Shown here: positions 26,477-32,512 of the stretch, one piece after another | Layout of the letters: every line of letters begins with the position of its first letter | Numbering within the stretch: the stretch's first letter is position 1 | From: Psychrobium sp. MM17-31 | Lineage (GTDB): Bacteria > Pseudomonadota > Gammaproteobacteria > Enterobacterales > Psychrobiaceae | NCBI RefSeq assembly: GCF_022347785.1 | Contig: NZ_JAKRGA010000001.1 | Span: 434,001-498,000 of the forward strand | Direction: 5' to 3' | DNA: 64,000 nt | Position numbers and translations under genes: made by a program | Notes under the pieces: model-generated | The model's database searches: none | What the model was told of the DNA's origin: nothing | The model's input: only the letters and a program-made list of their open reading frames with translations

Positions 26477-27262
26477 TTAGCAGTGCTCATCAATTGCGCC
26501 GTGCAGCACATCGGTTACCGCATCTAAGTCGTAGTCATGAATTTCAACCCATAACTTAGTTTCATCACGGCCAATCATCGATGCGAAGAAACCGCTGATA
26601 CCTTTCGCCTTGCGATCAACTTCGACCATCAGCTCTAGCGAATCGTCGTGATTAACCATCAACATTTCAACTTCATCGACACGGCCTCTGAAATCACCAG
26701 AATGAGCGTTAAATTCAAACTCTTGCACAAAGTGACCACCCAGCGCGTTACTCGCTTCGTTCTCAACTTCACCTAAGGCAAAACCAAGCTGACTCATCGC
26801 CACCAGCACTGCGTTTTGACGCTCGTTTGGCACCACATGCAGCATATCTTTGTCTGATTTATCCAGCGCGTAATCGATGTCTAAATCGGTATCAACCCAC
26901 ACACGTGACTGACCAAGTGATAACGGCGTGTTGGCTGGTAATGGAATTTCAAAATCGAAGTTAAGTTGCTGCCCTTCTTCAACATCAAAGCTGTCAGATA
27001 CTTGATAAGACGCTAACACCGCCGTGTGCTCAACAATACGCTCGTGCTCGTTGTCATCATCATCGGTGTAAGTTTCTTCGCTAAAGTAATTACAACACAC
27101 GTGAATTTTGATGTGATTAATATGCTGCTGCGTCGAACCACCATCAACCTGTACCGTTCCCGACAACACCTGTGTCGGCGCCACTTCTGGATTGTGAATA
27201 ATGGTATCCACCTTAGCACTACCAATGCCTACCGACGATAAAACCTTCTTGAAAAATGACAT
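26477..27262 (-). CDS. Spo0M-like sporulation-control family protein
   Basis: An arrestin-fold Spo0M family protein. Despite the name, the family is widespread in non-sporulating bacteria and its role there is unclear. The 261-residue product starts MSFFKKVLSSVGIGSAKVDT, typical of the family, with AAGGAA 5 bases before the ATG at 27262. Other family features are VAPTQVLSGTVQVDGG and FDFEIPLPANTPLSLG. The N-terminal extension to 27406 is rejected because it lacks family similarity and has a poor start. Confidence 0.9.
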   Translation of the reverse strand: MSFFKKVLSSVGIGSAKVDTIIHNPEVAPTQVLSGTVQVDGGSTQQHINHIKIHVCCNYFSEETYTDDDDNEHERIVEHTAVLASYQVSDSFDVEEGQQLNFDFEIPLPANTPLSLGQSRVWVDTDLDIDYALDKSDKDMLHVVPNERQNAVLVAMSQLGFALGEVENEASNALGGHFVQEFEFNAHSGDFRGRVDEVEMLMVNHDDSLELMVEVDRKAKGISGFFASMIGRDETKLWVEIHDYDLDAVTDVLHGAIDEHC

Positions 27263-27456
27263 AATGTTCCTTGTATCTAAATCGATGTTGATCACTGTTG
27301 GGGAGTAATCTAACTCATTATTGGGGGAATTACACGTTAATGAGTCAAAGTGGGTTGCATCATCATTCGTTTGTGAATGTTGCGCAGTTTGATGCACTCT
27401 TTCCACAGTTCGTCACTTTTAATGTTTTGATTTAATGAGAATTTATAAAAATCTCC

Positions 27457-27494
27457 TGCGTCATACATTGCACAGGCGTTCAATGTATGACGCA
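27457..27494. repeat. Perfect 14-bp inverted repeat
   Basis: TGCGTCATACATTG and its exact reverse complement CAATGTATGACGCA flank a 10-base loop. It lies in the 437-base non-coding gap between the Spo0M-like gene and the DUF4062 gene. Read on the minus strand it is followed by GGAGATTTTTA, which is a poor terminator tail, and no minus-strand gene needs one here. A protein-binding site or RNA element is possible. Confidence 0.6.
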
Positions 27495-27641
27495 ATGTTC
27501 ACTTTCTCCAAGAGAAAAAACCGACAAAAATTACAACGTTAGAATTTAAAGCTTTGACTTAAAATCGTTTTATTATTAGATTTGTGGGCAATTTAAAAAA
27601 TAGCGTGCTGTTTTTATTGTGCATGCGTGATAAATACACTG

Positions 27642-28731
27642 TTAGGTGTTCAATCAAATTTCGTGCAACATAGTACCTCAAAGGAAAGATAAATAGAAAA
27701 TGGCAAAGCCAAGAATATTCATTAGTTCAACTTATTATGATTTAAAACATATTCGCAACAGTATTGAGAGATTTGTTTCTGATCTAGGCTATGAATCAGT
27801 ATTGTTTGAAAGTGGCGACATCCCTTTCGATCATCAAGATCCATTAGACGAATCATGCTACAAAGAAATAGAAACATGTCATATATTTGTTCTCATTATT
27901 GGTGGTAGATATGGTTCCTCTGTTTCGAATGAAGAAAACTCATTACCTGAAGATGAACTAGAAAAACACTATCATCACTTCAACTCGATTACGCGAAAAG
28001 AATATGAGACAGCTAAAAAACTAGATCTGCCAATATATATATTTGTAGACAAAGGGGTTTCCGCAGAATATCAAACCTATAAAGAAAATAGAGAAAATAC
28101 ATCTATAAAATATGCTCATGTAGATAGCGTAAATATCTTTAAACTTTTAGATTCTATTCACTTACAGAGAAGAAACAATCTAGTCAGAGAGTTTGAAAAA
28201 TTTGATGACATCTCTTCATGGCTAAGAGAGCAATGGTCAGGACTTTTTGCTAAATATTTATCAAATAGATCCTCTGAATCCAACTTAAAATCATTAGCTA
28301 GGCAACTAGGTAACTTAGAAGATGTTGCAAGCGCTTTAAAAGATTACTCGGAAAACCTTCTAATAAATGTAAGTCCCCAGAACTCAGAACAACTTATCTC
28401 TGAAACTAATGAAAAACTTAAACATAAAAAAGAACTGAGCATCTTTGAAAGCTATAGATTTATCAAGCACTTAATTAATGACCATGGCGCTGATCCTGAA
28501 AAGCTTTTTGATGTATTTGTAGTATCTAAAACCTTAACTCAGTTTAAAAACAAGGCTAATGAGATGTTGCCAGAGGGGAAGACTTGCGGAGCATTTATTA
28601 GCCCTAAAGTAAGATTTGAGTTAGAAGATTTGCGAGAAGAATTAGATCTCAATGAATGGAAAAGGATGCCCCGGAGAAAAACACCTAACAAGTAAATCCA
28701 GGTGACGCCTACGGCGCACCTGATTTAGGCG
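27642..28731 (+). mobile_element. Single integron gene cassette (DUF4062 cargo) at a non-integron site
   Basis: The left boundary is G^TTAGGT (27641-27647) and the right boundary is G^TTAGAG (28731-28737). In an excised circle, the left end would supply an R' box GTTAGGT, the exact reverse complement of the R'' box ACCTAAC at 28683-28689. The attC hairpin between them is well formed. The cassette is 1090 bases with one gene in the orientation expected, a 58-base leader, and its stop codon inside the attC. No integrase gene, attI or second attC is seen, so this looks like a lone cassette placed by integrase at a secondary GTT site. Confidence 0.82.
27700..28695 (+). CDS. DUF4062 domain protein, integron cassette cargo
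   Basis: The N-terminal part (KPRIFISSTYYDLKHIRNSI, residues 3-22; ETCHIFVLIIGGRYGSS, about 59-75) is the DUF4062 domain, a nucleotide-binding-like alpha/beta fold often found at the N-terminus of STAND-type and other predicted signalling or defence proteins. The remaining 240 residues are helical and charged with no domain I recognise. It has no membrane segment. The gene is clearly more AT-rich than its neighbours and sits inside an integron cassette, so it is acquired. An AAGG site precedes the ATG. A defence role is inference only. Confidence 0.85.
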   Translation: MAKPRIFISSTYYDLKHIRNSIERFVSDLGYESVLFESGDIPFDHQDPLDESCYKEIETCHIFVLIIGGRYGSSVSNEENSLPEDELEKHYHHFNSITRKEYETAKKLDLPIYIFVDKGVSAEYQTYKENRENTSIKYAHVDSVNIFKLLDSIHLQRRNNLVREFEKFDDISSWLREQWSGLFAKYLSNRSSESNLKSLARQLGNLEDVASALKDYSENLLINVSPQNSEQLISETNEKLKHKKELSIFESYRFIKHLINDHGADPEKLFDVFVVSKTLTQFKNKANEMLPEGKTCGAFISPKVRFELEDLREELDLNEWKRMPRRKTPNK

Positions 28732-28737
28732 TTAGAG
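28683..28737 (+). repeat. attC recombination site of the integron cassette
   Basis: R'' box ACCTAAC, then an arm TAAATC-C-AGGTG-A-CGCC, loop TAC, arm GGCG-CACCT-GATTTA, then GGC and R' box GTTAGAG. Fifteen base pairs form with only two unpaired bases, C28699 and A28705, both on the same arm. On the bottom strand these are G and T, the pattern of extrahelical bases that IntI recognises. Size and layout match short attC sites such as that of aadA cassettes. The terminal TAGAG belongs to the host site. Confidence 0.85.
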
Positions 28738-28754
28738 CTATCGAGGGTATATTA

Positions 28755-28890
28755 GTGAAAAAAAGGACACCCACAAATTTCTCTATGATTTTTAACCCTT
28801 TACGACTGTAACAAACAAAAAGCTCAGTAATTAACAATAATTACTGAGCTTTTTTATTCAATTTTAACAGCCACGATTGATTAAAAAATT
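28755..28890 (+). repeat. Non-coding repeat unit, copy 1
   Basis: The unit contains GGACACCCA, then TTCTCTATGATTTTTAA, then a hairpin with AAGCTCAG/CTGAGCTT, then CACGATTGAT. The same order recurs at 28929-29060 with divergence. It belongs to the 410-base gap after the integron cassette, in which I see no gene. Similar GGACACCC-bearing units occur near REP-associated transposases in related bacteria; that link is from memory and unproven here. Confidence 0.65.
28817..28856. terminator. Strong hairpin with T run (inside repeat copy 1)
   Basis: A 13-bp perfect stem AAGCTCAGTAATT/AATTACTGAGCTT with a short loop is followed by TTTTTATT on the plus strand and has an A run on the other side. It can act as a bidirectional terminator and would end transcripts leaving the DUF4062 cassette. 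Confidence 0.7.
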
Positions 28891-28928
28891 CAATCTCTCC
28901 CTACACTAAATTTTCTTCATTCTTCCGC

Positions 28929-29060
28929 ATTGAGAAAAAGGGACACCCAAAAAATTCTCTTTGATTTTTAAAGTATTACAATTTCACTTCCCAATAAAGC
29001 TCAGCAAATAAAAATAATTGCTGAGCTTTAACGCCCACAATCGATACGAAATCAAATGGA
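28929..29060 (+). repeat. Non-coding repeat unit, copy 2
   Basis: This copy carries GGGACACCCA, TTCTCTTTGATTTTTAA, a hairpin AAAGCTCAGCAA/TTGCTGAGCTTT at 28996-29029, and CACAATCGAT, in the same order and spacing as copy 1. Changes in one stem arm are matched in the other (TAATT in copy 1, CAA in copy 2), so the hairpin appears to be maintained. Confidence 0.65.
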
Positions 29061-29685: not shown

Positions 29686-30063
29686 ATGGAGTATACTTTG
29701 ATTTACAAAACCAGAGTTTTTGCTTCTTTAACTAAAAAAGAAACTATATCGGACAATGATCTAATCACTGCTTGCTTGGAAATGAGCGATGGTCTTTTCG
29801 ATGCGGACTTAGGTGGTAACCTTTATAAAAAACGTATTGCCTCAGGTAATAAAGGTAAAAGTGGTGGCTACCGTACAATTGTCGGCGCAGTCATTGGAGA
29901 CAGATATTTTTTCCTGTATGCCTTTGCGAAAAGTGATAGAGCAAATATCAATGCTAAAGAAAAACTGGCATTAAAAGAGTTAGCAAAAGAGATTTTAGCG
30001 TTTGAAGAGAAAGAGATTAACCAACTAGTAAAAGATGGTGAATTGATTAAGGTAGGTAAATGA
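29686..30063 (+). CDS. RelE/HigB-like toxin of a type II toxin-antitoxin system
   Basis: The 125-residue product matches the RelE-type family in which the toxin precedes a helix-turn-helix antitoxin. The conserved block is visible: LYKKRIASGNKGKSGGYRTI (residues about 46-65) and DRYFFLYAFAKSDRANI (about 73-89). Such toxins usually cut mRNA at the ribosome; here that is by family. The ATG has a weak AATGGAG site overlapping it. It overlaps the antitoxin gene by 4 bases. Confidence 0.88.
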   Translation: MEYTLIYKTRVFASLTKKETISDNDLITACLEMSDGLFDADLGGNLYKKRIASGNKGKSGGYRTIVGAVIGDRYFFLYAFAKSDRANINAKEKLALKELAKEILAFEEKEINQLVKDGELIKVGK

Positions 30064-30365
30064 TGAGTGACATTCTAAAGGCAGTTCATGACACAGCGAA
30101 AGGCTTGCAAGATTCAGGAGCTATCAGCAAAACAACTATGAGAAAGTTTGATGCCCTATGTCTAACCACAATACATGAATTTACGCCGGAACAAGTAAAA
30201 TCGCTTCGAAAGAAAAACAACCTTTCACAGCCTGTCTTTGCGCAGTATCTAAATGTCAGTGATAAGTTAGTGAAAAAATGGGAACAAGGTGAAAGCAAAC
30301 CAAGAGGCGCGGCATTGAAAATGCTTTCTCTCGCCGAAAAGAAAGGCTTGGAAGCTATTGCATAA
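30060..30365 (+). CDS. NadS-type helix-turn-helix antitoxin
   Basis: The 101-residue product has a short N-terminal segment and a Xre-type helix-turn-helix (about residues 40-90; VKSLRKKNNLSQPVFAQYL, then KLVKKWEQGESKPRGAALKM). This is the partner that binds the RelE-like toxin and represses the operon. Two possible ATG starts lie at 30060 and 30063. The overlap with the toxin stop implies coupled translation. Confidence 0.88.
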   Translation: MMSDILKAVHDTAKGLQDSGAISKTTMRKFDALCLTTIHEFTPEQVKSLRKKNNLSQPVFAQYLNVSDKLVKKWEQGESKPRGAALKMLSLAEKKGLEAIA

Positions 30366-30450: not shown

Positions 30451-32331
30451 CTACAACACCGCCGACAACGTTTCTAACACTGACTCATCTTCGATTGTCG
30501 CTGGCACAACAAACTCATCGCCGTTGGCCATTTTCTTCATAGTGGCTCGAAGAATTTTACCTGAGCGAGTCTTTGGCAATTTCTCAACACAGTGCACACG
30601 CTTAAACGCCGCTACTGCGCCAACTTGTTCACGCACCAATGATACTAACTCTTTGCTCACTTCTTCGGCTGATTTGTTGTTGCCACTACTTAATACAACT
30701 AACGCTAATGGCAATTCGCCTTTTAGTTCATCGTTGACACCAATCACTGCGCCCTCGGCGACACTTGGGTGATCACAAATCACTTCTTCCATGCGGCCAG
30801 TAGATAAACGGTGCCCTGCTACGTTAATCACATCATCGATACGGTTCATTACAAATAGGTAATCATCCTCATCTAAATAGCCAGCATCACCTGTTAGGTA
30901 ATACCCTTCGATTTGGCTTAGATAAGCGTCGTAGAAACGTTCGTTGTTATTCCACAGTGTTGGCAGTGTGCCCGGCGGTAATGGCAGTTTTGCGACTATC
31001 ATGCCTGATTGGCCTTGCGGCACTTGCTCGCCAAATTCATCGACGATTTGCACGTCGTATCCTGGTACGGCACGTGCTGGAGAGCCAGCTTTAACTTCAC
31101 TTGGGCAGCTACCTAATAAGTTAGACGCCATTGGCCAGCCAGTTTCGGTTTGCCACCAGTGATCGATCACAGGAATTTGTAATTGGTCTTGCGCCCAATG
31201 CAAGGTTGCTGGGTCACAACGCTCGCCAGCAAGGTATAGTGCATTAAGACATGAAATATCGTATTTCTTAATAAACTCACCGTCAGGATCACAGCCGCGA
31301 AGTGCGCGGAATGCCGTTGGTGCAGTAAAGAAGCTTTTCACATTATATTCACTAATAATGCGCCAGAATGTGCCAGCATCTGGTGTACCTATTGGCTTAC
31401 CTTCGAATACTACCGTCGTCGAGCGATTGATAAGCGGGCCATAACAAATAAAAGAATGGCCTACTACCCAACCAACATCCGATGCCGCCCAGAACACTTC
31501 GCCTGGTTTCACGTTGTAAACGTGCTTCATTGACCACGCTAGCGCCACCGCATGACCGCCGTTATCGCGCACCACGCCTTTAGGCTGCCCTGTGGTTCCA
31601 GAGGTATATAAAATGTAGAGTGGATCTGTCGCCGCAACACTAACACAGCCCACAGGCTCAGCAGCTTCAACAGCTTCGTTCCAATCGACGTCACGACCAG
31701 CAGTCATTTCAGCAGTCAGCTGTGGGCGCTGCAGAATAATTGTATGCGTTGGTTTGTTAGCGGCAATCTCGATGGCTTCGTCAAGCAGTGGCTTGTACGC
31801 AACAAGACGATTAGGTTCAATACCACATGAGGCGCTTAGAATTAGTTTAGGTTTCGCATCATCAATTCGTGTTGCGAGCTCTGGCGCAGCAAAACCACCA
31901 AAAACTACTGAGTGAATCGCGCCAATACGCGCACAAGCGAGCATACCAATTACGGCTTCAGCGACCATTGGCATATAAATGACCACAGTATCGCCTTTCG
32001 TCACACCAAGATTGGTCATCGCGCCAGCAAGTCTTGCTACTTTGTCTTGTAGCTCATTAAAGGTCAGTTGGTATTTTACGTCGGTAACTGGTGAATCATA
32101 AATAATAGCGGCTTGTTCGCCATAACCATCTTCAACGTGTCTATCGACGGCGTTGTAACAGGTGTTTAGCTCCGCACCTTTAAACCAGCGATAAAAAGGT
32201 TTGTTGCTGTCATCAAGAATTTCATCGGCTTCTTTATTCCAGCTAATGGCTTTGGCGGCTTCGCCCCAGTAGCCTCGTGGATCGTCGATGGCGTGTTGTT
32301 TGAGTGTTTGATAGTCGAGTTGCTCAGTCAT
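30451..32331 (-). CDS. prpE: Propionyl-CoA synthetase-like acyl-CoA ligase (PrpE/ACSS3 type)
   Basis: An AMP-forming acyl-CoA synthetase that activates a short-chain acid, most likely propionate, to its CoA ester. The 626-residue product has the PrpE-like N-terminal segment (PFYRWFKGAELNTCYNAVDR), the phosphate loop YTSGTTGQPKGV, the WWQTETGWP motif and the C-terminal active lysine in PKTRSGKILR. The ATG at 32331 gives the usual start; a longer frame reaches 32358. It is divergent from liuR across 233 bases, so shared control by LiuR is possible. Acetate as substrate cannot be excluded from sequence alone. Confidence 0.85.
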   Translation of the reverse strand: MTEQLDYQTLKQHAIDDPRGYWGEAAKAISWNKEADEILDDSNKPFYRWFKGAELNTCYNAVDRHVEDGYGEQAAIIYDSPVTDVKYQLTFNELQDKVARLAGAMTNLGVTKGDTVVIYMPMVAEAVIGMLACARIGAIHSVVFGGFAAPELATRIDDAKPKLILSASCGIEPNRLVAYKPLLDEAIEIAANKPTHTIILQRPQLTAEMTAGRDVDWNEAVEAAEPVGCVSVAATDPLYILYTSGTTGQPKGVVRDNGGHAVALAWSMKHVYNVKPGEVFWAASDVGWVVGHSFICYGPLINRSTTVVFEGKPIGTPDAGTFWRIISEYNVKSFFTAPTAFRALRGCDPDGEFIKKYDISCLNALYLAGERCDPATLHWAQDQLQIPVIDHWWQTETGWPMASNLLGSCPSEVKAGSPARAVPGYDVQIVDEFGEQVPQGQSGMIVAKLPLPPGTLPTLWNNNERFYDAYLSQIEGYYLTGDAGYLDEDDYLFVMNRIDDVINVAGHRLSTGRMEEVICDHPSVAEGAVIGVNDELKGELPLALVVLSSGNNKSAEEVSKELVSLVREQVGAVAAFKRVHCVEKLPKTRSGKILRATMKKMANGDEFVVPATIEDESVLETLSAVL

Positions 32332-32512
32332 TGTTCTTGTTCTCATTCTTCTAATCAATGTTGACTATAACTAACACGTTAAAGAGCCGCTTAAATATTA
32401 GACTTAGTGTTGAGTGGCAGATAAATTGCTGTTTAGGCTTGATAATAACTAGGTATCTCCATTAGTCTAACAAGACAAAAGTGGTAATTGGTTCTGGAGT
32501 TACGAAAAATAA

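Follow-up and report, generated by a model that had tools for sequence, protein, structure and literature searches.

A gene cassette in Psychrobium sp. MM17-31 at a probable integrase-less integron platform, one of about ten in the genome

The window analysed here, a 64,000-nt stretch of the Psychrobium sp. MM17-31 genome (9 contigs, 4.17 Mb, completeness 100; G000, called the own genome below), contains a gene cassette between a Spo0M-like gene and an acyl-CoA synthetase-type gene that we take to be prpE-like (Table 1). A module composed of a hairpin, a Pc-like promoter and an attI-like site (27457-27644) precedes the cassette, which begins precisely where the module has its 3' end.

Table 1. 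Features at the cassette locus, with positions in the window.
Feature	Position	Strand	Basis or remark
Left host neighbour, Spo0M-like gene	26477..27406	-	Listed start probably too far upstream, judging by relatives
Module, probable integrase-less integron platform, ~188 nt	27457..27644	+	G007-only profile, E 6.9e-37
H2 hairpin, inverted repeat TGCGTCATACATTG...CAATGTATGACGCA	27457..27494	.	Sequence
Pc-like promoter TTGACT-17-TAGATT	27554..27582	+	Module-family consensus TTGACA
Orphan attI-like site, presumed crossover core G|TTAGGT between 27641 and 27642	27596..27647	+	Conservation
Gene cassette, 1,090 nt	27642..28731	+	Boundaries G|TTAGGT and G|TTAGAG
Cassette gene, 331 aa, DUF4062 N-terminal domain (PF13271)	27700..28695	+	E 4.5e-21
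attC site, 55 nt	28683..28737	+	Folding and covariance model match
Bidirectional terminator-like hairpin, 17 pairs, 3' of cassette	28817..28854	.	2 found vs 0.6 expected
Right host neighbour, acyl-CoA synthetase-type	30451..32358	-	Kept on the right of the G007 platform

The cassette has precise G|TTRRRY boundaries and an ORF in the orientation of its attC site. GTTAGGT at 27641-27647 is reverse complementary to ACCTAAC (28683-28689) at 7/7 positions, a level reached by about 0.001 of the comparable window positions, and the right boundary lies in the core GTTAGAG (28731), of which the last base is off consensus. The attC site shows complementary R'' and R' boxes, paired L boxes and a hairpin of 15 base pairs in which two bases of one side stay unpaired, namely C and A on the top strand and G and T on the bottom strand; extrahelical G and T in the folded bottom strand are canonical for attC sites. 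When the bottom strand, R boxes included, is folded as single-stranded DNA, it reaches -14.5 kcal/mol (z -4.7), a value equalled by one of 200 shuffles. Trained on 17 attCs from the array in genome G002, and not on the window's attC, a covariance model gave this site as its sole match up to E 5 in the 64-kb window (40.8 bits, E 2.8e-8), superseding a hand-made scan whose candidates numbered 24 on one strand and 23 on the other. Rfam at the gathering threshold yielded tRNA alone in the window.

An earlier note, made from these letters without database searches, had described a precisely bounded integron cassette, pointing to the exactly complementary ends, the hairpin with its two same-side unpaired bases, a stop codon inside the attC and the lack of a second attC, and had proposed a covariance model search as a check. 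All of this is borne out by the results above and by the stop of the ORF 27700-28695, which falls within the attC; only the bounds given there, 27641-28737, have to be drawn in to the cassette proper. The last six bases of the attC (28732-28737, TTAGAG) we infer to be the right half left from the recipient attI.

For the cassette protein, PADLOC (E <= 0.01) and a PDB sequence search (E <= 0.1) gave no match, and its predicted structure is of low confidence (mean pLDDT 59). DUF4062 relatives were found at three loci of a genome-contig collection and in five plasmid records (26-33% identity), with none on viral contigs; no relative in these genome, viral and plasmid collections showed a cassette context, and no attC was seen at the closest, L016. 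In genome G008, another orphan attI-like site has a homologue of 40.6% identity as its first ORF.

To the right of the cassette, two similar GGACACCCA...TTCTCT.TGATTTTTAA stretches (28766-28800 and 28937-28972) have a REP-like look, and a gene near the own-genome platform C2:164k is presumably a RAYT-like transposase. Between cassette and right host gene, 29686-30365 holds a pair of a RelE-type toxin and an HTH antitoxin, with no attC detected, and the same interval in the sister species (G007) holds a different pair, by reading RHH and GNAT-like. As the pairs differ between the two genomes, the spo0M-prpE gap as a whole has the appearance of a hotspot.

The upstream module scores 119.7 bits with R2, a module model that includes the window's own copy, and was also recovered with a profile of five G007 copies without any own-genome copy. 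A profile made only of nine copies from another family (f12) matches 27455-27584 at E 3.3e-10, covering the hairpin and the promoter while the attI is not aligned. With a 73-nt query around the hairpin, six own-genome matches at E <= 0.05 were obtained, all six at module loci, besides three module loci of G007 and one weak place in G006. The Pc-like promoter is called on its conservation and not on its consensus match, because three promoter-like sites were found in 27400-28900 vs 5.2 expected by chance.

By a matrix of four intI-linked attIs, the attI-like site ranks third of 378 GTTA sites and sixth of 127,962 positions of the window in the short form, and seventh of 378 and 130th of 127,930 in the long form. 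It belongs to a diverged subtype, weak by this matrix; its tie to intI-linked attIs runs via its orthologue and paralogues, among them the cassette-bearing site C121 of G007, which it resembles at E 6.2e-5. A 16-nt attI pattern with three mismatches was too loose to be of use (16 forward and 23 reverse matches in the own genome vs 11 and 24 for a backward control), and a XerCD/dif-like site was considered and rejected by eye and recall only.

The module family is homologous to attI regions that lie beside intI. The Pc-attI part of R2 matches such regions in G005 (E 2.8e-10), G004 (1.5e-8) and G002 (7.4e-4), and related sequences precede the first cassettes at other loci of G000, G007, G002 and G001, where they resemble the attI beside intI of G001, G004 and G005 and in many cases end a module of about 188 nt. 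The earlier note had seen no attI and had placed the cassette outside any integron, at a host site reading GTTAGAG. Neither view finds support, since an attI-like site, unrecognisable from the window alone, lies directly upstream, and the cassette begins at the end of a repeated module homologous to Pc-attI regions.

The own genome contains at least seven full and two partial modules and one of a second type, giving about ten loci. Among the best 150 of 2125 R2 candidates scored, which makes the module counts lower bounds, 16 matches fall in the own genome: seven full modules, two partial ones (C3:733k, E 1.7e-13, and C2:156k, E 3.8e-4), six reverse readings of the palindrome and a weak one on C5 (E 0.006), which was set aside from the counts. 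The same seven full modules are detected by the G007-only profile in the own-genome loci to which it was applied, the window's and those of L088 (E 6.2e-30), L091 (2.9e-26), L089 (4.2e-26), L136 (8.6e-24), L135 (1.2e-20) and L087 (1.1e-18), and a profile of the second type without own-genome members detects L090 at E 2.5e-21.

At least 12 attCs are present in the own genome, namely ten from the genome-wide search (a lower bound, with the best 150 of 1338 candidates scored, which missed the window's own attC), the window's and one at C3:189k. They lie at seven of the ten platform loci, each headed by a module: one in the window, two at C2:110k, four at C2:164k, one at C3:189k, two at C3:371k and one each at C3:540k and C3:644k; none was found in the attC search at the platforms C2:510k, C3:733k and C2:156k. 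Three of these attCs belong to one short type of 55 nt (44-49/55 identical, the window's being 48/55 and 49/55 identical to the other two), and their genes differ. The cores are mutated at 110k (GCTATAT) and 733k (GCTCTGC), and at 371k the first attC pairs with the core at 5/7 positions only. DUF6602 proteins occur at the platforms 371k of the own genome and C191 of G007.

Cassette starts were surveyed at 33 loci chosen among the attC matches, and 18 of these have a 7/7 start. Twelve of the 18 show an attI-like sequence upstream by eye, L121 resembles the attI of G008 itself, and five (L104, L107, L109, L119 and L120) have no attI-like match upstream. Platforms drawn from this survey have a 7/7 core by construction; at the seven platforms found by the module alone (110k, 164k, 189k, 371k and three of G186), the core, taken as the best within 4 positions, pairs at 7/7 in four, 6/7 in two and 5/7 in one. 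The G008 loci L119 and L120 share a stretch, AATTCTACAGCCTC, right before the first core, which is perhaps another class of docking site. Genome G002 has at least 43 attC matches over several contigs (L101-L106 and L037), including arrays away from its single intI.

Four platforms are common to the own genome and G007, as indicated by a tree of 23 module copies (support values not considered), which pairs the window with C48, 371k with C121, 510k with C57a and 110k with C191. The flanking genes agree on both sides for the window/C48 and 510k/C57a pairs, and on the left for the other two, where the G007 contigs end and about 2.1 kb of cargo is comparable. The first cargo differs at all four. 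Three pairs show no tblastx match at E <= 1e-5 (two of them within about 2.1 kb), and in the 510k/C57a pair the first ~500 nt of cargo differ while part of the rest is common to both. At the window's orthologous site, the spo0M neighbourhood of G007 is conserved relative to the window up to GTTA and diverges beyond, the cargo there being a CBASS cyclase (PADLOC E 8e-164) and a 2TM effector (3.4e-31). No attC was found in the search at C48, and this two-gene CBASS (L023, 9736-11651) is apparently without one.

Within the window/C48 pair, the attI stretch (-45 to -1; 27596-27640 in the window) is identical at 43/45 positions (96%), against 33/40 in the promoter stretch (-100 to -61), 15/30 between hairpin and promoter, 38/59 in the hairpin stretch (-189 to -131), 58/81 from -270 to -190 and 148/180 from -450 to -271, the other upstream stretches thus lying at 50-82% and the following cargo at 43-56%. 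The corresponding values for 371k/C121 are 36/45, 32/40, 17/30, 47/59, 43/81 and 118/180; with 80%, the attI is no more conserved there than hairpin and promoter, and it stands out in the window/C48 pair only. Among 58 genomes searched, own included, a close spo0M neighbour besides the own one is found in G007 and G002 only. In G002 the whole module is absent, prpE and spo0M being about 120 bp apart. The empty site that the earlier note had proposed to look for, with 27641 joined to 28732, was thus encountered in none of the 58 genomes, the G007 site being occupied and that of G002 module-less.

No intI lies adjacent to the window cassette, as it would in a complete integron, and the absence reported by the earlier note extends to the whole assembly: nothing in the own genome scores above the cut-off of the integron integrase family, and its two PF00589 matches, the only tyrosine recombinases, are presumably XerC-like and XerD-like. 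The integrase therefore came from elsewhere or was lost, unless an intI sits in a gap of the 9-contig assembly. In the family sample (nine genomes of one genus throughout), intI exceeds the cut-off in six; G000, G003 (88% complete) and G006 (80%) are without. The intI contig of G007 (L036, C181) ends so that its attI is hidden, with a terminal sequence that we take for sequencing adapter.

R2 matches at E <= 1e-4 in 13 of 247 genomes of the order, five from the own family and eight from others, and all eight outside the own family have an intI over the cut-off. In family f12, a full module adjoins an intact intI at G186 C34, and another adjoins an intI with two TGA stops at G164 C12:316k. N-terminal pieces of intI lie beside modules at G164 346k (query 1-90), G186 C59 (1-29 and 38-64), G186 C40 (10-48) and G098 C108 (1-31), so that matches below E 1e-4 occur at six of 41 loci searched (G186 C34, C59 and C40, G164 C12:316k and 346k, G098 C108); at the own-genome platforms, the sole match in the intI search is at chance level (L089, E 0.86). 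A LexA-type box along with apparent first intI codons (MNVSSPFF, by eye) is found at G007 C47, the box is kept at the own-genome platform C2:110k, and a strict box occurs in 2 of 25 platforms scanned. Over a 32-nt stretch of the attI, there is no difference between G186 C34, which lies beside intI, G186 C40 and C59 and G007 C47. The intI remnants, the LexA-type box and the intI-adjacent modules together make the orphan platforms look like integrons whose intI eroded from the far end while Pc-attI was kept.

We consider it probable, at roughly 0.7, that we are dealing with one of many integrase-less integron platforms in this genome, which was filled by attI x attC recombination with IntI acting in trans and is now probably frozen. 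The platforms would go back to complete integrons (intI-attI) that existed or were copied at several loci and whose intI genes eroded while Pc-attI was kept; the dispersal to ten loci fits best with multiple ancestral integron copies and later intI loss. Beside spo0M, a platform of Pc and attI would have been retained, at which the IntI of a resident or visiting integron would have inserted a circular DUF4062 cassette at G|TTA. Pc may then drive the cassette gene, and the terminator-like hairpin would end the unit. A change of cargo since the split from the sister species would need IntI acting in trans, most relatives in the genus having intI. The own genome seems to have lost its intI, so the platforms are probably frozen until an integrase re-enters, unless an assembly gap hides one.

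The same anatomy could also result from plain decay, in which dead relics of several old integrons persist, intI and activity disappeared long ago, the cassettes stayed by chance and the species differences reflect old loss and rearrangement instead of exchange in trans. This reading differs from the platform filled in trans in activity only, and the odds of the two overlap; taken by itself we regard it as unlikely. It is in line with the series of eroded intI pieces beside modules, the lack of intI in the own genome, the unremarkable attI conservation of 371k/C121, the mutated cores at 110k and 733k and the partial modules at 733k and 156k, and these damaged cores and partial modules, together with the diverged window attI, the lack of an attC at C48 and the module-less locus of G002, keep it a serious rival. 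However, the attI that is nearly unchanged between species in the window pair, the 32-nt stretch shared by the intI-linked copy, two orphan G186 copies and G007 C47, the intact cassette ORFs and the differing first cargo at all four shared platforms argue against mere relics.

It is very improbable that a trans-acting integrase put an isolated cassette into a secondary, non-attI chromosomal site. Such attG insertion is reportedly a described reaction (Loot et al. in 2024), and a single cassette without intI, along with the weak score of the window's attI against intI-linked ones, would suit it. Secondary sites of attI-like sequence are described as frequent in genomes (PMC10127599). The recipient, however, is itself attI-like, if weak by the matrix, so that it does not qualify as a site that is neither attI nor attC; it closes, at the 3' end, a repeated Pc-attI module which also stands before other cassettes and which in another family is the attI region of integrons with intI, and a random genomic site would not bear a conserved 188-nt module upstream. 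The homology of the module to intI-bearing Pc-attI regions and the other cargo at the G007 site make an orphan attI the most likely recipient. That the module is a promoter-bearing REP- or MITE-like repeat unrelated to integrons, meeting cassette starts by chance, is scarcely credible despite its dispersal and its near-perfect hairpin, given that it adjoins intI in G186 and G164 and that its 3' end is the core complementary to the first R'' box.

The platforms share a Pc-like promoter, an attI-like site, cassettes with attCs of the genus type and a module homologous to intI-adjacent attI with sedentary chromosomal integrons, from which they differ in having no intI, a single cassette here and about ten separate sites instead of one with a long array. 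A CALIN is a cluster of attC sites lacking integrase and, in the available part of PMC12444791, occupies conserved, dispersed positions in about half of the Xanthomonas genomes. The likeness lies in the attC cassettes without intI and in such positions; by contrast, the loci here have a conserved Pc-attI module at the head, whereas attI goes unmentioned for the Xanthomonas loci in that part, and often a single attC, below the usual threshold of two. The window locus, with one attC, stays under this threshold, and other own-genome loci reach 2, 2 and 4. With attG insertion, which is treated together with delta-attI cassettes in PMC12901181, the locus shares a cassette outside an intI-bearing integron and the need for an integrase in trans, the recipient here being attI-like with a conserved module upstream. 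In0, an integrase without cassettes, is likewise an incomplete integron and the mirror image of a cassette and attI without integrase. Among the matches listed in the open-licence PMC literature, no description of multiple integrase-less attI platforms was found.

In the textbook integron a single attI lies in cis to intI, and expression is for the most part that of the first cassettes. About ten Pc-attI platforms in one genome would allow many first-position cassettes, with one integrase for many loci. We tentatively raise the possibility, in our view somewhat improbable, of a distributed integron, in which one integrase, permanent or acquired intermittently, would serve many chromosomal Pc-attI sites in trans and several first cassettes would be expressed at once, with anti-phage-type genes among the cargo. 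The platforms also account for lone attC cassettes, which do not reach the threshold of two attCs used in common annotation. Whether losing intI in cis amounts to decay or to a mode of operation becomes testable, and the module model can be used to count such platforms in other genomes.
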